Part shown: positions 44,419 through 54,604 of the stretch, in pieces
Position numbering within the stretch: the first letter of the stretch is position 1
Layout: every line of letters starts with the position of its first letter
NCBI RefSeq assembly: GCF_002019705.1
Contig: NZ_KV917377.1
Coordinates: forward strand, 3,631,649 to 3,695,648
DNA: 64,000 bases
Direction of reading: 5' to 3'
From: Shouchella patagoniensis
GTDB taxonomy: Bacteria; Bacillota; Bacilli; Bacillales; Bacillaceae_D
Notes under the pieces: model-generated
Seen by the model: the letters and a program-made list of their open reading frames with translations, nothing else
Told to the model about the DNA's origin: nothing
Database searches by the model: none
Position numbers and translations under genes: made by a program

Positions 44419-44448
44419 TTGAAAAAGCGCTTACACCTAAACTATAAT
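44419..44448 (+). promoter_or_regulatory. sigma-A promoter with overlapping cre for the LacI/TRAP operon
   Basis: TTGAAA (44419-44424) and TATAAT (44443-44448) are 18 bases apart. AAAAAGCGCTTACA (44422-44435) matches 12 of 14 cre positions, with a perfect right half, and overlaps the -35 and spacer. CcpA repression is the simple prediction. Confidence 0.65.
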
Positions 44449-44457
44449 GCAAGTAGA

Positions 44458-44501
44458 TAAACCGATTTAGTAAACGTTTTTTTATATTCTAAATCGGTTT
44501 A
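44458..44501 (+). promoter_or_regulatory. paired LacI-type operators
   Basis: TAAACCGATTTAG (44458-44470) and its exact reverse complement CTAAATCGGTTTA (44489-44501) lie 31 bases apart centre to centre, about three helical turns. Each half is itself a near-palindrome with a central CG, as LacI-family operators are. They sit just after the predicted transcription start and before the LacI gene. Confidence 0.7.
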
Positions 44502-44523
44502 GTATGTATGTGGAGGAGTAACG

Positions 44524-45528
44524 ATGGCTGGAATAACAATGTTGGATGTGGCGAAAAAAGCGGGGGTTTCAAAAAGTACAGTATCGCAATATTTAAATAA
44601 ACGTTACAACTATATGAGCGGAGATACAAAAGAGCGAATCTCCTCTGCAATTAAAGAGCTAGGTTATAGTCCAAATGGGGTAGCAAGGAGCTTACGCCAG
44701 AAGAAGACCCAAACGATAGGCGTTATTGTCGCCAATATCCTACATGCATTTTCTACAGAGGTGATTCGAGCGATAGAAGACACATGCCATAAACATGACG
44801 TCCATGTCATTGTTTGTAATGCTGACGATGATCCAGAAAAAGAAAAACGCTATGTAGAAATGTTACGAGCTAAGCAAGTAGATGGCATGATTGTACTACC
44901 GACAAGTGCGAATGCGGAACTGTTTAATGAATTGATTGAACAAGCGTACCCGCTCGTGTTTTTAGATCGAATCCTTGCCGATGTACCAGTTAATACAGTC
45001 TTATCAGATAATGAGAAAACGGTTCGACTTGCTGTAGATGCATTGGTCGAAAGAAATTATAAAAGGATAGGAATGATTCTTCCTCCTATTTCAGAAGATA
45101 TTACCCCACGTTTGGAACGAAAGGTGGCTTTTGAAAAAGCACTAACAGAATTATGTCTTGAAGAAAATGGATCGCGGGTTGAAGCTGTGCCTATCACAGG
45201 GGTCAAACAAGCATTAATAGAGATGCTAACTCTTGAACAACCGATCGATGCGGTGATTGCAGGAAATGATTTAGTGTTGAATGAAGTGCTTCGCTTCGTA
45301 AATGAAAAGGAGATTAACATTCCGGAAAACCTTGCACTGATTGGGATTGATGAAGTTGATTTTGCTGAATTTTTAAATCCCCCATTAACAACGGTTGCTC
45401 AACCAACCTTTGCGATGGGACATAAGGCTGCAGAACTTCTTTTGTCTGAGATTAATAAAGGTGGCCTCAAGCAAAAAGCCGCAATTTACCGATTTGAACC
45501 AACACTAAACAGACGTAGTTCGTTTTAA
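44524..45528 (+). CDS. LacI-family regulator of the TRAP/hexulose-phosphate operon (KdgR-like)
   Basis: A 334-residue LacI/GalR repressor. The HTH is MLDVAKKAGVSKSTVSQYLN at residues about 6-25 and the hinge helix SPNGVARSLRQKKT follows. The periplasmic-binding-like core begins TIGVIVANI and includes FLDRI and DAVIAGNDLVL. It is first in the operon, 17 bases before dctP, behind two inverted operators and a cre, so it likely represses the whole cluster and is released by the pathway's sugar, sugar acid or phosphate. It resembles KdgR in overall look, but the ligand cannot be read from the sequence. Confidence 0.88.
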   Translation: MAGITMLDVAKKAGVSKSTVSQYLNKRYNYMSGDTKERISSAIKELGYSPNGVARSLRQKKTQTIGVIVANILHAFSTEVIRAIEDTCHKHDVHVIVCNADDDPEKEKRYVEMLRAKQVDGMIVLPTSANAELFNELIEQAYPLVFLDRILADVPVNTVLSDNEKTVRLAVDALVERNYKRIGMILPPISEDITPRLERKVAFEKALTELCLEENGSRVEAVPITGVKQALIEMLTLEQPIDAVIAGNDLVLNEVLRFVNEKEINIPENLALIGIDEVDFAEFLNPPLTTVAQPTFAMGHKAAELLLSEINKGGLKQKAAIYRFEPTLNRRSSF

Positions 45529-45545
45529 GGAAAGGGGACATCGAT

Positions 45546-46553
45546 GTGAAAAAAAAGAATGTACTTATAGTTGGAACGTTGGCACTAATCATTAGCGGAT
45601 GCTCGAATACTAAAGTGGTGTCTGAGAGTGATCCAGGCGATCCTCAGAAATTGATTTTAGCAACGCAACTTGATGCAAACAGTCCATATGCTGTTGGTTT
45701 TGAGGCTTTCAAAAATGCTGTTGAAGAAGAAACTGGGGGCACGGTAACTGCAGAAATTCATACGAACGGCTCTCTTGGTGGAAATGAAGATGCTCTTTTG
45801 CAAAGTATCGCAACAGGTGGAGTTGATATGGCAGTTGTTTCTCCTGGTTTCATGACCCAAGTATTAAGAGAGGTTGATTTGTTTTCACTACCTTATTTAT
45901 TCACAAGTTATGACCACTGGGAACGTGTTGTAGATGGGGAAATTGGTATAGAGATGAGCAATATGATTGAACAAGGTACCAATTTGCAAGTACTGGGGTA
46001 TTGGACAGCTGGAGTTCGAAATTATTATGGTGCAGAACCAGTTAATGAGGTGGCTGATTTACGTAACGTCAGTATTCGCACTCAAGATTCTCCAGCGATT
46101 CAAGATAGTTGGTCAGCACTTGGAGCAATTCCAACTAGTGTCGCATGGGATGAGATGTATCAAGCATTGCAAAACCGAGTTGTTGATGCTTCGGAGAATG
46201 ATTTTACAAACATTTATCAATCAAGCCACCATGAGGTAACGCCTTACCTTACTTTAACGGAACACGATTTTACGACTCGCTTCTTCTTAACATCGGATAT
46301 TGTCATGGAACGTTTTTCAGAAGATGAACAAGCAGCGATTTACGCGGCTGCGGAAATCGCAACGGAAGCCGCGCGGGAAGCGGATAAAGAACTTGCAGAA
46401 CAGTCTTTGACACGTCTTGAGGAAGAAGGAGCCATAGTAAATGAAATTGATACAACACCATTTATTGAACAAACAGAACCCATTCGTGAAGAGGCAGCCC
46501 TTCATTTAGAAGCAAAAGATTTGCTTGAAGCAATCCGTCATTTAAGTGATTAG
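45546..46553 (+). CDS. dctP: TRAP transporter substrate-binding lipoprotein (DctP-like)
   Basis: A 335-residue exported binding protein with a lipoprotein signal (LALIISGCSN, Cys19). Family motifs are HTNGSLGGNEDALLQSIATG, GVDMAVVSPG, LRNVSIRTQDSPAIQDSW (the Arg that contacts a substrate carboxylate in DctP proteins) and VVDASENDFTNIY. The conserved Arg suggests an organic or sugar acid as ligand. GTG 45546 is the start, behind AAAGGGGAC; an ATG two bases earlier is out of frame. It feeds the DctQ/DctM pair encoded next, which uses an ion gradient, usually Na+. Confidence 0.92.
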   Translation: MKKKNVLIVGTLALIISGCSNTKVVSESDPGDPQKLILATQLDANSPYAVGFEAFKNAVEEETGGTVTAEIHTNGSLGGNEDALLQSIATGGVDMAVVSPGFMTQVLREVDLFSLPYLFTSYDHWERVVDGEIGIEMSNMIEQGTNLQVLGYWTAGVRNYYGAEPVNEVADLRNVSIRTQDSPAIQDSWSALGAIPTSVAWDEMYQALQNRVVDASENDFTNIYQSSHHEVTPYLTLTEHDFTTRFFLTSDIVMERFSEDEQAAIYAAAEIATEAAREADKELAEQSLTRLEEEGAIVNEIDTTPFIEQTEPIREEAALHLEAKDLLEAIRHLSD

Positions 46554-46568
46554 AGAGGAGAAATCAAA

Positions 46569-47063
46569 ATGAAAACGTTATTAAATGGAATCGAATACGT
46601 CTTTATGCGCGTAGCTACTGTTTTTTTTGTTGGTTTTGTGGCTTGCATCTTTTTGCAGCTTCTTTCGCGTTATGTACCAAATATAACGATTTTATGGGCA
46701 GCTGAAGTAGCGACCTATGCGTTTATCTGGACCGTTTTTTTAGGAGCAGCAGTGATGGTAAATCAGCAGGAACATTTTAAAATTGATTTTCTATTTGATA
46801 AAATGGAAGGGTTTTCTTTATTGGGCGTTAAAATGATCAGCCATGTATTAATAGGTGCATTTGGATTAATGATGGTCATCAATGGTGCGAAACTCGTTCA
46901 ACTATTCTGGGATTGGACGGTTAACACATTGCCAGAACTTCAACAAGGCTTTTTATGGTTAGCGTTACCTGTGTCCGGTCTTGGCATATTATTGTTTTCG
47001 ATTGGGAATGCAGTTGATGATATTAGGTCGTATAGAACGGATAAAAGGGGGAAAGCACTTTGA
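46569..47063 (+). CDS. dctQ: TRAP transporter small membrane subunit (DctQ-like)
   Basis: A 164-residue protein with four membrane helices. The central LLSRYVPNITILWAAEVATYAFIWTVFLGAA contains the conserved W-x-x-E in the second helix pair typical of DctQ. It links the binding protein to DctM. It starts 15 bases after dctP with GAGAGGAG and overlaps dctM by four bases. The length and helix count are normal. Confidence 0.9.
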   Translation: MKTLLNGIEYVFMRVATVFFVGFVACIFLQLLSRYVPNITILWAAEVATYAFIWTVFLGAAVMVNQQEHFKIDFLFDKMEGFSLLGVKMISHVLIGAFGLMMVINGAKLVQLFWDWTVNTLPELQQGFLWLALPVSGLGILLFSIGNAVDDIRSYRTDKRGKAL

Positions 47064-48337
47064 CTGGCGTAATTCTTGTTGCTCTTTTTATCGGACTCTT
47101 ATTTTTAGGTGTTCCAATTGCATTTACATTAGGAATTGTTGCATTTATAGGTATTTGGCTGCTTGATTCGTTGCCAATGCAAGTGGTCGTACAGAGTATG
47201 TTCACAGGACTTGAATCATTTATTTTGTTAGCGGTTCCACTCTTTATTCTTGCAGCAAATATTATGAATCAAGGACAAATTTCTGAGCGGTTAATTAAAT
47301 TGGCCGTTTCCATGGTCGGGCATATTCGAGGTGGTTTGGCGCATGCGAATATTGTTGTTTCCATGTTTTTTGGAGGCATTTCAGGTTCGGCACAGGCTGA
47401 TACAGCAGGTGTAGGTAAGATATTAATACCAAGCATGGTAAAAGAAGGTTATTCGAAAGGAACAGCCGTTGGCACAACCGCTGCCTCATCAACCATGGGA
47501 ATGTTAATCCCTCCAAGTATTCCAATGGTTGTGTATGGCAGTGTGACAAGCGTATCGGTTGGACAAATGTTTTTGGGCGGTGTTATTCCTGGTTTATTAA
47601 TGGGGGTAGCGATGATGGCGCTCGTTGGTTTTGTTTCTCGCAGACAGAATTACCCTCGTCACACGAGAGTAAGTATAAAAGAAATTGGACGTCAATTTTT
47701 AAAATGTGTGCCGCCTCTTTTGACACCTGTTATTATTCTTGGAGGCATCATTGGTGGTTTTGTTACTCCAACGGAAGCTGCTATTATTGCTTGCATGTAT
47801 GCCCTCATTTTAGCCATGTTCGTGTATCGGACAATTAAATTAAAAGATTTGCCTGATATTTTATTTGATACGATTAAGCTTAGTTCTCTAACATTGTTTG
47901 CACTTGCGACAGCTAGTGCCCTTGGACGTTTATTCAGCTATTACCGCGTTCCAGATATGATCGCTGGTTTCTTTGAAAGTACATTCTCGAGTATTGGGTT
48001 ATTCTTATTAGCAGTCATCTTACTGTTTCTATTTGTGGGTATGTTTTTAGATGCAATACCCGCGATGATTTTATTTGTTCCAATTGTCCTGCCAGCCTCA
48101 CAAGCACTTGGTGTTGATCCAGTCCATTTTGGGATCGTTATTGTTATGTGTCTCGCGGTTGGAATGATTACACCACCATATGGTCTATGCATGCTACTAG
48201 CAAGTTCAATTGCTAACCTTACGGTAAGTCGTTCAATTGTCGCGTTATTACCGTATGTTGCAGTTATCATTGTAACGATTATTATCGTTGCATTTGTACC
48301 TAGTTTGGCGTTATGGTTGCCAGGATTTTTAGAATAA
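47060..48337 (+). CDS. dctM: TRAP transporter large membrane subunit (DctM-like)
   Basis: A 425-residue protein with about 12 helices and the family motifs LFLGVPIAFTLGIVAF, GGISGSAQADTAGVGKILIPSM, FVTPTEAAIIA and MFLDAIPAMILFVPIVLPA. It forms the ion-coupled channel of the TRAP system. It starts with TTG at 47060, overlapping the DctQ stop, behind GGGGGAAAG. The isomerase gene follows 20 bases after its stop, so import and metabolism genes are in one operon. Confidence 0.92.
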   Translation: MTGVILVALFIGLLFLGVPIAFTLGIVAFIGIWLLDSLPMQVVVQSMFTGLESFILLAVPLFILAANIMNQGQISERLIKLAVSMVGHIRGGLAHANIVVSMFFGGISGSAQADTAGVGKILIPSMVKEGYSKGTAVGTTAASSTMGMLIPPSIPMVVYGSVTSVSVGQMFLGGVIPGLLMGVAMMALVGFVSRRQNYPRHTRVSIKEIGRQFLKCVPPLLTPVIILGGIIGGFVTPTEAAIIACMYALILAMFVYRTIKLKDLPDILFDTIKLSSLTLFALATASALGRLFSYYRVPDMIAGFFESTFSSIGLFLLAVILLFLFVGMFLDAIPAMILFVPIVLPASQALGVDPVHFGIVIVMCLAVGMITPPYGLCMLLASSIANLTVSRSIVALLPYVAVIIVTIIIVAFVPSLALWLPGFLE

Positions 48338-48357
48338 GATGGAATGGAGGTGTTGAA

Positions 48358-48909
48358 ATGGATACATATAAAAAAACGGCGCTCCTTTGTATTGAAGAAG
48401 TGAGGACTGTGTTAGATCAAGTAAATGAGCATGAACTTTCGGCATTTGCAAAAGCGTTAACGGAAGCAAATCGGATTTTTATAAGTGGAGATGGACGATC
48501 TGGACTTATGGGTAAAGCGATTGCTATGCGTCTAATGCACGCGAACTATATCGTATTTGCGTTAGGCGAAACCATTACACCAAGCATTAAGGAAGGGGAC
48601 TTGCTTGTGCTTATATCTGGTTCAGCAACTGGTAATGCGCCATCGGATCTAGTTCATAAGGCAATCAAGGCAGGGGCTCAGGTTTCTTTAGTTACCGCAA
48701 ATCCGGACAGTAAAATGGGGGAGTTGTGTAAGTCAATATTGTTCATTCCGGCTGCGACAAAACAGAGGAAACAGCATGAACCAGTTACCATTCAGCCATT
48801 AGGCAATCAGTTTGATCAAAGTGTTCATTTGTTGCTTGATTCAATTATCGTAAAATTAACAGATAAACAACAGGATGCGATGCGGGCTAGACATGCCAAT
48901 TTAGAATAG
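48358..48909 (+). CDS. hxlB: 6-phospho-3-hexuloisomerase-like SIS protein
   Basis: A 183-residue SIS-domain isomerase. GDGRSGLMGKAIAMRLMH (about 41-58), ALGETITPSIKEGDLLVLISGSATG and VTANPDSKMG are the sugar-phosphate pocket of PHI enzymes, and the length matches. Known PHI moves a carbonyl between C3 and C2, turning 3-hexulose 6-phosphate into fructose 6-phosphate. ATG 48358 behind GGAGGTG is the start; the longer frame from 48313 would overlap dctM. In the usual ribulose-monophosphate arrangement it sits next to hxlA, but here rpiA and a kinase gene lie between them. Confidence 0.88.
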   Translation: MDTYKKTALLCIEEVRTVLDQVNEHELSAFAKALTEANRIFISGDGRSGLMGKAIAMRLMHANYIVFALGETITPSIKEGDLLVLISGSATGNAPSDLVHKAIKAGAQVSLVTANPDSKMGELCKSILFIPAATKQRKQHEPVTIQPLGNQFDQSVHLLLDSIIVKLTDKQQDAMRARHANLE

Positions 48910-48919
48910 GGGGTTTACA

Positions 48920-49606
48920 ATGGCAAATTTAAAGCGGGTTGCTGCATTAGAGGCAGTTAAATATGTACAAGACGGAATGAAAATAGGACTTGGCTCTGGT
49001 TCGACAGTAAATGAATTTATTCAAGTACTTGGAGAAAAAGTTGCTAATGGTTTAAACGTTCAAGTGGTGCCCGCATCGAATGCAACAGAAGCACATGCAG
49101 TAGAATTAGGGATCGAATTGATTGAACTCTCACAAGGCGAACAACTTGATTTGGCTTTTGATGGCGCTGATGAAGTGGATGAGAGATTGGACTTATTAAA
49201 GGGCGGTGGGGGTTCCCTTGTAAGGGAAAAGATTGTTGCAAAAGCAGCAAAAGAGCTAATAATTATGGTTGATGAACGTAAGGTAGTAGACAAATTGGGC
49301 GCTTTTACTCTGCCCGTGGAAGTTGTTCCGTTTGGTTGGAAATCAACTGTAGATCGAATAAAAGAACTAGGGGCTTTACCTGCGTTACGGATGGAGGGGG
49401 ATGATCCATTTGTTTCAAATAACGGAAATTTTATAGTTGACTGTGATTTTGGGATCATTTCTAAACCAGATGAATTACATCAGGCGTTGAAGCAGTTAGT
49501 AGGAGTTGTTGATACAGGTTTGTTTGTAAAGATGGCAAATAGGGTCTTCGTTGCAGGAAAAAATGGAGTCCGCCAATATATGTTGGAGGAATTGGAAAAT
49601 GAATGA
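48920..49606 (+). CDS. rpiA: ribose-5-phosphate isomerase A
   Basis: A 228-residue RpiA. The sequence has GLGSGSTVNEF (phosphate loop), FDGADEVD (catalytic Asp region), LLKGGGGSLVREKIVA (general-base Glu and Lys) and VDERKVV. It interconverts ribulose 5-phosphate and ribose 5-phosphate. Being inside this inducible operon suggests that the pathway makes a large flux of ribulose 5-phosphate. Housekeeping isomerase genes in Bacilli are elsewhere, so this is probably an extra copy. It overlaps the kinase gene by eight bases. Confidence 0.93.
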   Translation: MANLKRVAALEAVKYVQDGMKIGLGSGSTVNEFIQVLGEKVANGLNVQVVPASNATEAHAVELGIELIELSQGEQLDLAFDGADEVDERLDLLKGGGGSLVREKIVAKAAKELIIMVDERKVVDKLGAFTLPVEVVPFGWKSTVDRIKELGALPALRMEGDDPFVSNNGNFIVDCDFGIISKPDELHQALKQLVGVVDTGLFVKMANRVFVAGKNGVRQYMLEELENE

Positions 49607-50549
49607 TGTCATTACAATAGGTGATGCAATGATTTCATTTAGCCCTAGTACAACGGGACCAATGAAATTCGTCCAATCCTTTGAACGTCGGGTTGGAGGT
49701 GCGGAATTAAACGTAGCGATTGGTTGTGCCCGACTTGGATTAACATCGGGTTGGATTAGCAGGTTAGGTAGGGATGAATTTGGTCAGCACATAAAGAACT
49801 TTGCTCGAGGCGAAGGCATTGATACGAATGAAGTGAAACGTGTTGATGGTTATGCAACATCCCTCAATTTTAAAGAGATTATGGCAAATGGGGCTGGGCG
49901 TACTTTTTATTATCGGTCCCCTTCTCCGACGGAGACATTGTTGCCAGAAGATCTAGACCCGCATTTTTTTCAGCAAGCTAAAATTTTGCATCTTACTGGA
50001 GTATTCCCTGCTGTTTCTGCAACGAATATGGACGTGACGAAGCGTGCGATTCAATTAGCTAAAGAACATGACGTTAAAATATCGTTTGATCCAAATATTC
50101 GTCTAAGACTTTGGGACAAAGAAGATGCTCGTCGTGCTCTGTACCCGCTGTTAAAAGATGTGGACCTATTACTCGCAGGTGATGAGGAAATGGAAATGAT
50201 ATTGGGAACCAAGGATCCAGAAGATGTTCTAAAACGAACAGCAGAACTAGGCATTGAGCTTGTTGTTATTAAACAAGGAGAGCACGGGTCAATCGGTTAT
50301 TATAAAGGCGAAACAGTTCAAGCGAATGCAGTGCCTGTCGATAAGGTCGCTGATACGGTTGGAGCTGGTGATGGGTTTGATGCTGGCGTGCTTTACGGCT
50401 ATTTGCAAGGTTGGGGACTTGAGCGAATGCTTGCTTTTGCTAACACAATAGGCTCAATGGTTGTTCGAGTTGTTGGTGATAATGAGGGGCTGCCTTATTT
50501 AGAAGAAGTACGTGCGCAAATGGGTGAGCTTGAACGTATTGAACGTTAA
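49599..50549 (+). CDS. PfkB-family sugar or sugar-acid kinase (KdgK-like)
   Basis: A 316-residue ribokinase-fold kinase. RVGGAELNVAIGCARLG lies near the N-terminus, FYYRSPSPTE in the lid, KISFDPNIRLRLWDKEDARR in the middle, and the signature DTVGAGDGFDAG with catalytic Asp258 near the C-terminus. The DPNIRLRLW segment is typical of 2-keto-3-deoxygluconate and 2-ketogluconate kinases rather than fructokinases or ribokinase. ATG 49599 overlaps the rpiA stop; a longer frame from 49551 lies in rpiA. It likely phosphorylates the imported compound at C6. No KDPG aldolase gene accompanies it, so a standard KDG route is not complete here. Confidence 0.87.
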   Translation: MNDVITIGDAMISFSPSTTGPMKFVQSFERRVGGAELNVAIGCARLGLTSGWISRLGRDEFGQHIKNFARGEGIDTNEVKRVDGYATSLNFKEIMANGAGRTFYYRSPSPTETLLPEDLDPHFFQQAKILHLTGVFPAVSATNMDVTKRAIQLAKEHDVKISFDPNIRLRLWDKEDARRALYPLLKDVDLLLAGDEEMEMILGTKDPEDVLKRTAELGIELVVIKQGEHGSIGYYKGETVQANAVPVDKVADTVGAGDGFDAGVLYGYLQGWGLERMLAFANTIGSMVVRVVGDNEGLPYLEEVRAQMGELERIER

Positions 50550-50568
50550 CTAGGAAGGAGTTAGAACG

Positions 50569-51183
50569 ATGAAGCTTCAGCTTGCCTTAGATCGGCTTGA
50601 TTGGGATCAATGTTTTCAACTGGCTGATGAAACAAAAAAATATGTTGATATTATTGAAATTGGCACAGGGGTTATTAAAGAATATGGCATGGAGATTGTG
50701 CGTGAAATGCGGGAAGTCTTCCCCAATCACAGCTTGCTCGCAGATATGAAAATTTGTGATGCTGGTAAGCATGAAGCGAAGCAAGCATTTGCGGCAGGTG
50801 CAGATATTACTACTGTGATGGCTTTTGCTCCCGATGCGACAGTGCGTGAGACCATTCAAACAGCAAATGAAATGGGAAAAGAAATGATGATAGACTTACT
50901 TGGTGTGCAAAAAAGCAGGCTGATGGAGTTAAGACAGCTTGGAGCAAGCTATGTTGGCTTACACATTGGCAAAGACCAGCAAAAAAATAAAGGACTTACC
51001 TCTACAACTTTTCAATTAATTGAAGGATTTCATTTTAGAGTAGCTGTAGCTGGTGGTGTGACTTTTGAACAGTTGCCAACTATTATGCAGGATGCCCCTG
51101 ACATTTTGATTGTCGGAAGTGGAATAGTGAAAGCTGAACAGCCAATTTTTGCGGCAAAAAAATTTAAGGAAACGATAAGCTAG
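50569..51183 (+). CDS. hxlA: 3-hexulose-6-phosphate synthase / 3-keto-gulonate-6-phosphate decarboxylase homologue
   Basis: A 204-residue OMP-decarboxylase-suprafamily barrel. Metal and catalytic residues are present: ALD (Asp8), IIEIGT (Glu30), LADMKICDAG (Asp59, Lys61, Asp64). At three places that distinguish the two known activities, it has Asp109 and Ala161 as in hexulose-phosphate synthases, but Lys135 (in LHIGKD), where the decarboxylase has Arg and the synthase an uncharged residue. HPS splits 3-hexulose 6-phosphate to ribulose 5-phosphate and formaldehyde; the decarboxylase removes CO2 from a 3-keto-6-phosphohexonate. The mixed residues leave the reaction open. It is last in the operon. 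Confidence 0.85.
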   Translation: MKLQLALDRLDWDQCFQLADETKKYVDIIEIGTGVIKEYGMEIVREMREVFPNHSLLADMKICDAGKHEAKQAFAAGADITTVMAFAPDATVRETIQTANEMGKEMMIDLLGVQKSRLMELRQLGASYVGLHIGKDQQKNKGLTSTTFQLIEGFHFRVAVAGGVTFEQLPTIMQDAPDILIVGSGIVKAEQPIFAAKKFKETIS

Positions 51184-51246
51184 CTTGGTTCCACACTGCA
51201 TGCTTTGTTCTTATTTTCATTTTAACGTCCGGTTTTTGAGTGCTCT

Positions 51247-51363
51247 ATGCTTATCTTTGGAGCTCTCATTGACTTAATTAATGTGTTAGGTGCTACCATC
51301 CTCATGTTTTCTATCTTGCACTACTTTGCAAAAACAGACTCAAAGAAGGACATGTCGCTTTAG
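51247..51363 (+). CDS. possible 38-residue membrane peptide or permease remnant
   Basis: The frame begins MLIFGALIDLIN and has one hydrophobic helix, then KTDSKKDMSL. Its 3' end lies in the terminator hairpin that follows. There is no good ribosome site. It may be a fragment of a lost permease tail or chance. Confidence 0.2.
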   Translation: MLIFGALIDLINVLGATILMFSILHYFAKTDSKKDMSL

Positions 51364-51380
51364 AGCGCATGTCTTTTTTT
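51349..51380 (+). terminator. terminator after the hxlA operon
   Basis: GACATG (51349-51354) pairs with CATGTC (51368-51373), extended by CGC/GCG with one bulged base, followed by seven T. Confidence 0.8.
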
Positions 51381-51444: not shown

Positions 51445-52362
51445 ATGGAGTTTACGTTTAAAGAAAAAGATTCTCATAATCAACATGACTTAACAAGAAA
51501 CTTCACTATCGAAGAATTTATGTATCCGTACATGAAAACAGAATTTGAAGTTTTCGGTATGCACATTCGGCAAGTGAATGGGAACTGGACCTACCCTCTA
51601 CATGCGCATCCAATCTATGAAATGAATTTTTTGATAGAAGGAGAACAGCATTTTACGCTAGGCGATCAACTTTTAGAACAAAGGAAAGGGGATTTAATTT
51701 TAATTAGACCAGGAGAGTCTCATGGGAGTAAAGCCGTTAATCAATTAGGTTTCACGTATGCCTGTATTCATTTTAATATTGATGACAAACTCTTTTTGCC
51801 TTATTTAAATGAAACGGAAAAAACGTTATTCGCAACTGATAGTGAAGTTATGGCTAAATTAATGCCTTATTTAGAGCGAATCATTCAAATGATAAAACAA
51901 GGCGAGCGAGGTCTCACCTATAAATTGCGAATGCAGGCGGCTCTTATTGAAATGTTATCCGTACTCGTTGTGGCGTTAACGGAAACCAAACAACAGCATC
52001 TATCAGGGCGGACAATTGAACTCGCTTATAAGATTGCAAAGAAAATGGAAGATAAGATGGCTAGTTCATTTGAAAACAGGCTATTAAATGAACAGTCATG
52101 GACGATTGAAACAATCGCTAAAGAGTTAAACATAAGCCCATCTTATTGTAATAAATTATTTAAGCAAGTATACCATATGTCCCCAAGAAAATATCTTTCC
52201 TTAAAGAAAATCAACCATGCAAAAGCGCTTTTGCTGGAATCAAGTTTAACGATTGAATACGTCGGCGAACAAGTTGGGTATTATGATTCTGCTCATTTTA
52301 GTAGGCAGTTTAAAAGGTGGACAGGTTTGTCGCCGACTCAATATCGCAAAAATCAACGCTAA
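51445..52362 (+). CDS. AraC-family transcriptional regulator with cupin sensor domain
   Basis: A 305-residue regulator. The N-terminal cupin has YPLHAHPIYEMNFLIEG and LILIRPGESHG. The C-terminal double HTH begins WTIETIAKELNISPSYCNKLFKQ and ends SLTIEYVGEQVGYYDSAHFSRQFKRWTGLSPTQYRKN, the AraC signature. It starts after a GGGGGCGG site. It lies between the hexulose-phosphate operon, which ends in a terminator, and a convergent nucleotidyltransferase gene, so its target is not obvious. Sugar sensing is usual for this class. Confidence 0.88.
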   Translation: MEFTFKEKDSHNQHDLTRNFTIEEFMYPYMKTEFEVFGMHIRQVNGNWTYPLHAHPIYEMNFLIEGEQHFTLGDQLLEQRKGDLILIRPGESHGSKAVNQLGFTYACIHFNIDDKLFLPYLNETEKTLFATDSEVMAKLMPYLERIIQMIKQGERGLTYKLRMQAALIEMLSVLVVALTETKQQHLSGRTIELAYKIAKKMEDKMASSFENRLLNEQSWTIETIAKELNISPSYCNKLFKQVYHMSPRKYLSLKKINHAKALLLESSLTIEYVGEQVGYYDSAHFSRQFKRWTGLSPTQYRKNQR

Positions 52363-53402
52363 CTTGAGTGTATAATAGTAGAGTTTTGTTGCAAGATTGT
52401 TAGAACACCGCTCCACATATTAGGCATTTCTAATAGAGTCGCTTCAGCCCGTGAATATAAGTCAGAACTTGAGAGAATACCAATATCGGAAAGTAGGGCT
52501 TCAAAAGCGTAAAAGCGATCTTGATGCAACGTTGGAGCATCCACGTTCAAAATAATATGACAGCGACAAAAGGTAGCAAGAAGCCAAAAAACACTCTCGC
52601 GATGAAAACCTTGGCTGATTAAAGATTGACTTCCATCAATGGAGATGGGGCGAGCTTGTTTCGTTATATCACTTGAGAAGAAGAATGGCGTTTTTGCTAC
52701 TTGTGTAGTTAAATCAAAGGTCATTGCTAGCTCTTTTAGGTGGTGAGCTACTTTTTCAGCAGACAAGTTCCGACAACCGATCTGGTGCAATAATTGTTCG
52801 TAGATGGGCGATTTGTTGTAGTGCGTGAGCATTTTTCTTACAGCGTAGTAACGAAGGCGGACCGTTGGGTTTTGTAGGGCAGCTGTTAGGTACATATGTG
52901 TGGTAACACCAGTCGGAAAAAGCCAACTCATGACTTGCTCGTGGTAAGGTAGATCCGTAGGAATTTGTTTAAGACCATTTATTGCTTTTTCCTTTGCGTC
53001 GAGACAGCGTTTATAGACCCATTGATACTGAGAAAAGTTTTGTGAAACAAGTTGTTGTAAAGGCTTTAACTTATGGTCTGGGTCTGAAATAATTTCTGTA
53101 TGGTGAAAGCTATAAGCTAAATGGTAGTTACTTAAAATAACTTCTGACGATGAAAAGAGATTAACTGGTAAGTAAGAAACTTCAAGCAAGACATCTTTAT
53201 AAAGGAACTTCCCTAATTTTAATGAGGGAGCTTTCTCAGAAGTAACAACCATAATATCGATATCAGAATATAAGGGTAATTCACTATTGGCTTCTTTTAT
53301 TAAGGAGGAACCACTAAAATAAGCCCCTTTAAACCATATTTCTTTACATGCATATCGGTTAACCCACTCACGAGCAATCTTTAAAGCATCATGAACAATC
53401 AT
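52359..53402 (-). CDS. nucleotidyltransferase-domain protein
   Basis: A 347-residue protein with an N-terminal nucleotidyltransferase fold: GAYFSGSSLIKE (Gly-Ser motif) and LPLYSDIDIMVVTSE (Asp-x-Asp metal pair), with a possible third acid in LLEVSYLP. The rest is helical, with no known motif. It resembles uncharacterised Bacillus proteins distantly like aminoglycoside or streptomycin adenylyltransferases, but the substrate is unknown. The start at 53402 has GGAGGGGAG on the minus strand. It is convergent with the AraC gene, overlapping its stop by four bases. Confidence 0.78.
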   Translation of the reverse strand: MIVHDALKIAREWVNRYACKEIWFKGAYFSGSSLIKEANSELPLYSDIDIMVVTSEKAPSLKLGKFLYKDVLLEVSYLPVNLFSSSEVILSNYHLAYSFHHTEIISDPDHKLKPLQQLVSQNFSQYQWVYKRCLDAKEKAINGLKQIPTDLPYHEQVMSWLFPTGVTTHMYLTAALQNPTVRLRYYAVRKMLTHYNKSPIYEQLLHQIGCRNLSAEKVAHHLKELAMTFDLTTQVAKTPFFFSSDITKQARPISIDGSQSLISQGFHRESVFWLLATFCRCHIILNVDAPTLHQDRFYAFEALLSDIGILSSSDLYSRAEATLLEMPNMWSGVLTILQQNSTIIHSS

Positions 53403-53644
53403 TTGCTCCCCTCCTTCTTCAGAAGTTCTTGTTTTGTTACAAAATTCCTTCTTCTGTTAGTTGAATCATGCTTTGGATAAATAGTGTCTCTGTTCGTACA
53501 TGGAATGCAGAAAAATTGATTTGTAAAATAAGTTTATGAATATAAATAGATTGAGAGCATCTAGTCTTCAATATTGGGCTGAAAAGTTGTTTCTAAAAAA
53601 ATTAGGGTTCTATAGGACCTGGAAAATGGAGGGGGTAAAAAGCG

Positions 53645-54604
53645 ATGCCTCTACTCGATATGTCAATACCTCAGCTAAATAACTATAGGGGAAGAAATCC
53701 AAGACCAAAAGACTTTGATCAATATTGGGAGAATGCACTGCAGGAGCTAGACCAAATTGACCCAGAGGTGACTTTTGAGAAAGCAGATTTTCAAACGAGT
53801 TATGCGGAATGCCAGCATTTATATTTTAATAGTGTAAATGGAGCAAGAATTTATGCGAAATACGTAAGTCCTATCCAACCAAAAGCAACTGGACAGGCAA
53901 TCCTCTTGTTTCACGGCTATGGAGGACAGTCGCACGAATGGACAGAAATGTTAAAATTTGCAGCGGCGGGAGCAAGTGTGTTTTTCTTAGATGTTCGAGG
54001 GCAAGCTGGTCGATCAGAAGATCCCGGTGGTGTTAAAGGAAATACATTACGCGGACATATCATTCGAGGCATTGAAAGTGGCAGCTCTGCTCTTTTTTAT
54101 CGGAGCGTCTTTCTTGATACTGTGCAGCTTGCGCGAGTCGCACAGTCTTTTCCAGATATTGACCCAACTCGCATTTTGACAAGTGGTTGGTCTCAAGGAG
54201 GAGCCTTGGCACTTGTCTGCGCTGCTCTTGTACCCGAAATCGAGAAAGTAGCTACAGTTTATCCTTTTTTAAGTGACTATCAGCGAGTTTGGGAAATGGA
54301 CTGCGTAAATGATGCGTATAAGGAATTAAAGGAGTATTTTCGGATTTACGATCCACAGCATCAACAAGAAGCTCATTTCTTTCAAACCCTTGGTTATATC
54401 GACATTCAACATTTAAGCAATAGGATTAAGGCAAAAGTAATGATGGGGACAGGTTTAATGGATTCGTCGTGTCCCCCATCTACTCAATTCACAATCTATA
54501 ACAAGTTAACTTGTGATAAGCGAATGAAAATCTTTCCTGACTTTGGTCATGAGGTATTACCTGGAATGAAGGATCATATCTATCAATTTCTTTTCTGTGA
54601 ATAA
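53645..54604 (+). CDS. CE7-family acetylxylan esterase / cephalosporin-C deacetylase
   Basis: A 319-residue alpha/beta hydrolase without signal peptide. It begins MPLLDMSIPQLNNYRGRNPRP, typical for CE7. Motifs are the oxyanion-hole FHGYGGQSHEW, DVRGQAGRSED, the nucleophile GWSQGG (Ser183), the acid in GTGLMDSSCPPST and the base in DFGHEV. The family removes acetyl groups from short xylo-oligosaccharides and other small esters in the cytoplasm. GGAGGG precedes ATG 53645. It is alone, with a terminator. It may serve plant-biomass use together with the sugar operons nearby. Confidence 0.93.
   Translation: MPLLDMSIPQLNNYRGRNPRPKDFDQYWENALQELDQIDPEVTFEKADFQTSYAECQHLYFNSVNGARIYAKYVSPIQPKATGQAILLFHGYGGQSHEWTEMLKFAAAGASVFFLDVRGQAGRSEDPGGVKGNTLRGHIIRGIESGSSALFYRSVFLDTVQLARVAQSFPDIDPTRILTSGWSQGGALALVCAALVPEIEKVATVYPFLSDYQRVWEMDCVNDAYKELKEYFRIYDPQHQQEAHFFQTLGYIDIQHLSNRIKAKVMMGTGLMDSSCPPSTQFTIYNKLTCDKRMKIFPDFGHEVLPGMKDHIYQFLFCE

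Follow-up and report, generated by a model that had tools for sequence, protein, structure and literature searches.

The subject of this analysis is an operon of eight genes on the plus strand (positions 44524-51183) of a 64,000-nucleotide stretch of Shouchella patagoniensis, contig NZ_KV917377.1 (GCF_002019705.1), which we refer to as the window and whose positions are counted from its first letter. Our reading, to which gene content, phylogeny and conserved residues lead us to give a probability of roughly 0.57, is that the operon serves catabolism under LacI control and would convert a 2-keto-hexonate into pentose phosphate and CO2 by means of three enzymes: a PfkB kinase (K), an HxlB-like isomerase (B) and an HxlA-like enzyme (A). 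In databases A and B are labelled as the formaldehyde-fixing enzymes of the ribulose monophosphate (RuMP) pathway, but they probably do a different job. More broadly, we see an even chance that Bacilli can turn 2-keto-hexonates into pentose phosphate without any redox step, a former RuMP pair having been recruited as an isomerase yielding 3-keto-6-phosphogluconate and a decarboxylase acting on it. Under its RuMP database names the pair would have been joined to two or more uptake systems, among them a KguT-like major facilitator superfamily (MFS) carrier and a tripartite ATP-independent periplasmic (TRAP) transporter.

The operon and the proposed pathway

The eight genes follow one another with gaps of 17, 15, -4, 20, 10, -8 and 19 bases, in this order:

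44524-45528, plus strand: LacI-family regulator, recognised by family search
45546-46553, plus strand: DctP, TRAP solute-binding lipoprotein
46569-47063, plus strand: DctQ, TRAP small permease (PF04290, 91.8 bits)
47060-48337, plus strand: DctM, TRAP large permease (TIGR00786, 411.5 bits)
48358-48909, plus strand: B, HxlB-like SIS isomerase, proposed 2-keto to 3-keto hexonate 6-phosphate isomerase
48920-49606, plus strand: RpiA, ribose 5-phosphate isomerase A (269 bits, above the NCBIfam cut-off of 192)
49599-50549, plus strand: K, PfkB kinase of the 2-keto-3-deoxygluconate (KDG) kinase type, proposed 2-keto-hexonate 6-kinase
50569-51183, plus strand: A, HxlA-like enzyme of the orotidine 5'-monophosphate decarboxylase (OMPDC) suprafamily, proposed 3-keto-hexonate 6-phosphate decarboxylase

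This is the single LacI-controlled operon that an earlier note on this DNA had described, with all eight genes in the families given there. B scores 200.8 bits against the 6-phospho-3-hexuloisomerase (PHI) model TIGR03127 (cut-off 160), and A scores 254.4 bits against the 3-hexulose-6-phosphate synthase (HPS) model TIGR03128 (cut-off 200). The top NCBIfam match of K is NF040938, a bifunctional kinase of KDG and 2-keto-3-deoxygalactonate, at 227.5 bits, which falls short of that model's cut-off of 400. The transporter has all three parts, and the conserved Arg is present in DctP. As had also been claimed, neither an aldolase for 2-keto-3-deoxy-6-phosphogluconate (KDPG) nor a 2-ketogluconate reductase was found among the open reading frames (ORFs) of the operon or in family searches of it; two KDPG-aldolase-family genes, and KguD-like reductases of which the best is 48% identical, lie at other sites of the genome.

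PHI shifts the ketone between C2 and C3 of hexulose 6-phosphate, 3-keto-L-gulonate 6-phosphate decarboxylase (KGPDC) takes CO2 off a 3-keto-hexonate 6-phosphate, and a Mg-bound enediolate is common to HPS and KGPDC. In the pathway that we infer, reactions and substrate alike, the TRAP transporter would import a six-carbon keto-acid and K would phosphorylate it at C6. B would then move the ketone of the 2-keto-hexonate 6-phosphate from C2 to C3, the mirror of the PHI reaction that makes fructose 6-phosphate, and A would strip CO2 from the resulting beta-keto acid by way of a Mg-bound 1,2-enediolate, in the manner of KGPDC, leaving ribulose 5-phosphate to pass to RpiA and the pentose phosphate pathway. 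Starting at 2-keto-D-gluconate 6-phosphate, the products would be CO2 and ribulose 5-phosphate, with zero redox steps. The substrate is most likely 2-keto-D-gluconate or its C3 epimer, because only a D-erythro C4-C5 pair would yield ribulose 5-phosphate.

A and B are set apart from the RuMP enzymes

The genome carries a separate hxlA-hxlB pair (C1:2038653) adjoined by an HxlR-family gene, and the HxlA of that locus is 39% identical to A. Among 23 RuMP-type loci, HxlR is a neighbour in 19 and HxlB in 21, and kinase, TRAP or KguT genes are found within about 1.5 kb in none of them. Phylogenetic trees group A and its relatives from similar operons (TRAP-type) with a second set from loci resembling 2-ketogluconate operons (kgu-type, described below), with support of 100/96 and apart from 21 RuMP HxlA; B and kgu-type B are likewise grouped apart from RuMP HxlB (support 100/98). 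Membership of A in the RuMP HxlA group was considered and set aside, the tree placing A outside those 21 sequences.

The two branches of A share R9 (96/96 sequences) and K135 (95/96), at positions where all 23 RuMP enzymes have L and Y. K135 is conserved in 102/102 A orthologues, in place of the non-basic residue expected of a RuMP HxlA, and is aligned with Arg139 of KGPDC; position 139 is R in KGPDC and L (3ajx) or Y (HPS1) in HPS (PMC5980557, Table 1). The residues of the Mg site are kept, with D8, E30, D59, K61, D64 and H132 present in all 102 orthologues. At the positions that were compared the window A has D109, K135, A161 and S184, of which only the basic charge at 139 is common to KGPDC.

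Sister copies of A and B lie in loci resembling 2-ketogluconate operons

Matches to the HxlA model in 299 genomes of the phylum include a second group, with R9 and, in 3/4, K135, whose neighbourhoods resembled the 2-ketogluconate (kgu) operon. As a reference we used a Klebsiella aerogenes record annotated with PtxS (two coding sequences), KguE, 2-ketogluconate kinase, an MFS gene and 2-ketogluconate 6-phosphate reductase. Against this record, KguE, KguK and the carrier are 37%, 54% and 65% identical in one genome (G120) and 33%, 51% and 66% identical in another (G526). A survey of 398 genomes of the class found kgu-type A in 17. We examined 19 kgu-type loci, 18 of which have an intact A ORF, and counted neighbours within seven ORFs on each side. 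B adjoins A in 18/18; LacI is present in 16, a kinase in 15, a KguT-like carrier in 13, a KguE-like gene in nine and a KDPG-type aldolase (Eda) in four, and KguD is present in none.

In Pseudomonas, KguD reduces 2-keto-6-phosphogluconate to 6-phosphogluconate, towards the Entner-Doudoroff pathway (PMC11678583). The simplest reading of the kgu-type loci is that B and A would take over 2-keto-6-phosphogluconate where KguD is missing from the locus. The earlier note's model of keto-acid decarboxylation gains independent support from these Bacilli sister branches without KguD and from the basic residue at the Arg139 position. As a separate observation, KguE-like and KguK-like domains lie in one ORF in three of the nine loci with KguE (L193:5234-7213, L217:3353-5056 and L221:4802-6736), a fusion that points to successive action of KguE and KguK.

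Conservation of the TRAP-type loci

In a survey of 41 genomes of the family, A or its orthologue is present in 15; in the 14 besides the window's own genome the identity is 52-89%, well clear of the RuMP HxlA matches at 32-41%. The copy nearest to that of the window (L042, genome G036; 89% over 117 residues) is broken in two in its assembly. In a survey of 397 genomes of the order, 58 have A with a score of at least 246 bits, and the next-best match scores 201.

To describe the operon type we used 80 TRAP-type loci, which are the named-genome loci most similar to A (the best 80 of 538 relatives), and counted genes within the fetched stretch. B is present in 79, DctP and DctM in 78 each, a kinase in 77, LacI and DctQ in 75 each, Eda in 49 and RpiA in 43; A is found as an ORF in 79, a count that carries no information since the loci were picked by A. 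Eda and RpiA occur together in 28 of the 80, and neither occurs in 16. The common core of these loci is the importer, the kinase, A and B. Gene content is thus conserved, but gene order, whose lack of conservation the earlier note had named as refuting its proposal, is not: besides the order of the window (LacI-DctPQM-B-RpiA-K-A) we see LacI-B-Eda-DctPQM-RpiA-K-A, LacI-K-A-B-Eda-DctPQM, LacI-DctPQM-K-A-B and others. Given that Eda is present in 49 of the 80, its absence from the window operon is local, and the note's statement to that effect does not extend to the relatives.

A few loci add an Ldh2-type dehydrogenase, an RspB-like dehydrogenase, UxuA and mannonate oxidoreductase to the set, and in two aligned loci of this enlarged set DctP belongs to another type (26 and 29% identity). 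Seventeen of the 80 loci contain a small cupin gene, mostly after DctM (e.g. L094:13765-14076), and 17 contain a GFO/IDH/MocA oxidoreductase (e.g. L075:9800-10771). Most of the operon-borne Eda (L048-L127, e.g. L075:3747-4379) carry the motif E[ILV]TxET, which corresponds to EVTLDS and EVTLNS in the two copies of the window's genome and to EVT[YF]TT in those of exu-type loci; the operon-borne Eda may have a substrate of its own.

Regulatory sites

The following features flank the coding region:

44419-44448, plus strand: promoter-like site TTGAAA-18-TATAAT, 11 of 12 matches
44458-44470, plus strand: operator copy 1, TAAACCGATTTAG
44489-44502, minus strand: operator copy 2, reading CTAAATCGGTTTAG on the plus strand (copy 1 inverted)
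51342-51380, plus strand: intrinsic terminator-like hairpin and U-run, -19.6 kcal/mol, z -5.75

Genome-wide, TAAACCGATTTAG occurs in only two exact copies, the inverted pair 3' of the promoter-like site. Of 76 stretches upstream of LacI, 66 contain a palindrome centred on CG, in most cases of the form CTAAAYCGRTTTAG, where shuffled sequences give a mean of 3.2. The operator core is similar to the PtxS site TGAAACCGGTTTCA. In seven kgu-type loci LacI shares 45-48% identity with that of the window; for eleven further LacI genes of such loci the value is 29-36%. Promoter-like sites in the region number 19 where 17.6 are expected, so that their number is not above chance, and the hairpin is missing from the list of the consensus scan that gave them. 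The sequence AAAAAGCGCTTACA (window 44422-44435), an imperfect palindrome, overlaps the promoter; it resembles a CcpA cre site, which would fit catabolite repression.

The kinase, the imported acid and alternative explanations

In the 397 genomes of the order a K orthologue is present in 82, including all 58 with A where 12 are expected by chance, which fits a kinase feeding A and B. A number of findings nevertheless weigh against our reading, and they are gathered in this section. The window K lies outside the KguK clade in the tree, and the importer is not KguT; moreover, "KguT" is named by position only, because the Klebsiella record calls its MFS gene a tartrate transporter. Elsewhere in the genome, a KguD homologue of at least 47% identity is present in 14 of the 18 kgu-type genomes, the other four (G1089, G841, G526 and G663) having none above 40%. 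Operator-type palindromes are rare upstream of kgu-type genes (8/53 stretches, shuffled 2.1), also when only LacI stretches are counted (3/18, shuffled 1.0); the eight stretches include five occurrences of the CTAAA or GTAAA form. Some loci have no kinase, namely L049 and L067 of the TRAP type (the best match elsewhere in G004, the genome of L049, is at 40%) and L218, L224 and L226 of the kgu type. In the genome of L218 (G925), whose locus reads LacI-KguT-A-B, a LacI-K-Eda locus elsewhere has a window-type kinase (61% identity). RpiA is present in 0/18 kgu-type loci, and kinase-RpiA neighbours exist without A or B (L275 and L277); because of these pairs RpiA speaks less strongly for ribulose 5-phosphate than the earlier note supposed when it made RpiA the dedicated last step. 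Finally, an HxlB-like gene stands beside K and an Ldh2-type dehydrogenase in L272 and L273 (G192 and G347) with no A orthologue at the 246-bit level, and B may there have an A-independent role or be a remnant.

The most probable of the alternatives concerns the kinase, which may be a KDG kinase. The operon would then be a KDG operon with a side branch, in which KDG or a hexonate enters through the TRAP transporter, K phosphorylates KDG, a KDPG aldolase encoded in the operon or elsewhere ends the main route, and A and B only clear 2-keto-6-phosphogluconate made by K in error or from a second substrate. A and B would catalyse the reactions proposed above, and only the main substrate would differ. 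We consider this explanation unlikely, while giving it real weight. K orthologues occur without A in 24 of the 82 genomes; in 20 of these loci, which we fetched, the kinase is 49-62% identical to the window K, with Eda within eight ORFs in 19 and UxuA in 13, and one (L279) reads kduI-kduD-K-Eda. The tree mixes these A-less kinases with A-associated ones, and Eda is frequent in the TRAP-type loci. On the other hand, the window operon is without Eda, and the genome has two other kinase-Eda pairs, one beside a mannonate dehydratase and one beside a galactonate dehydratase; the window K also lies apart from the genome's two other KDG-type kinases in the tree. In one TRAP-type locus (L095) a second kinase, grouping with those KDG-type kinases, sits beside the window-type K, and across the 80 loci B, the kinase and the importer are found in 77-79 as against 49 for Eda. 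The orthologous group of K probably handles KDG in many genomes, and K may phosphorylate both KDG and 2-ketogluconate. Since K is inseparable from the kinases of hexuronate and KDG operons, 2-ketogluconate is no more than our best guess for the imported acid, with KDG a likely co-substrate.

Two further explanations concern A and B themselves. A exceeds the cut-off of the NCBI model for HPS and has the HPS-type D109 and A161, not the E112 and T169 of KGPDC, and both features count against a decarboxylase. If A and B were ordinary HPS and PHI, they would fix formaldehyde from an imported compound or, in reverse, release it, as in the second model of the earlier note. That model is now disfavoured, and we strongly doubt it, given the separate HxlR-hxlA-hxlB locus, the 23/23 RuMP-type loci without kinase, TRAP or KguT genes, the grouping of A and B apart from the RuMP enzymes, the R9 and K135 in place of L and Y, and the location of the sister branch in kgu-type loci; nor was a demethylase or methanol gene recognised by family searches among the eight operon genes. 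It is also conceivable that A is a retro-aldolase acting on another sugar acid phosphate and releasing glyoxylate or another aldehyde in place of CO2, with K135 holding the extra carboxylate and B preparing the substrate. The retained D109 and A161 and the unusual ET motif in most partner aldolases would suit such an enzyme. However, the six-carbon 2-ketogluconate to which the kgu link points would have only a carboxyl beyond the cleaved bond, and we think this explanation very improbable.

Comparison with known systems and significance

Among known systems the kgu operon of Pseudomonas and Klebsiella (PtxS, kguE-kguK-kguT-kguD) resembles the window operon in its LacI-family control, keto-acid uptake, PfkB kinase and similar operator core, and sister copies of A and B are placed among KguE, KguK and KguT-like homologues. 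It differs in that the A-B loci have an isomerase and a proposed decarboxylase where KguD is missing, and in that the window has a TRAP importer and a kinase of another clade. The yia/ula pathway of Escherichia coli uses a TRAP transporter or phosphotransferase system, a kinase and the KGPDC SgbH or UlaD. Like the window operon it combines an importer, a kinase and an OMPDC-suprafamily decarboxylase (proposed for the window) that gives pentulose 5-phosphate and CO2; unlike it, the decarboxylase acts directly on 3-keto-L-gulonate, so that no PHI-type isomerase is involved. The active sites differ as well, with E112, R139 and T169 in KGPDC corresponding to D109, K135 and A161 in A. RuMP HxlA and HxlB with HxlR belong to the same families, pass the same NCBI cut-offs and keep the same Mg-site residues, yet form separate tree groups, have L and Y for R9 and K135, and are without the kinase and importer neighbours seen in 77-78 of the 80 TRAP-type loci. 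The hexuronate and KDG operons of Bacilli (LacI-K-Eda-UxuA-short-chain dehydrogenase; kduI-kduD-K-Eda) share an orthologous K (49-62% identity in 20 loci), often Eda and, where a LacI is adjacent, one 45-56% identical to the window LacI; they differ in lacking A and B, apart from L272 and L273, which have B alone, and in ending with the KDPG aldolase.

All of the protein families are known. We found no description of this combination or of the proposed reaction pair in open papers. If our reading is correct, the operon would connect 2-ketogluconate with ribulose 5-phosphate by a new enzymatic link that achieves, without NAD(P)H, what KguD and 6-phosphogluconate dehydrogenase do together. A would be a natural HPS-type enzyme turned decarboxylase, a change in the opposite direction to that designed into KGPDC mutants (structures 1xbx and 1xby). 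The models TIGR03128 and TIGR03127 could, in that case, overcall the RuMP pathway: A and B both pass their cut-offs, and formaldehyde traits could therefore be inferred from sugar-acid genes.

Downstream of the operon, positions 51445-54604 of the window hold genes for an AraC-family regulator and for an acetyl xylan esterase (AXE1), separated by an ORF of 347 residues on the opposite strand.

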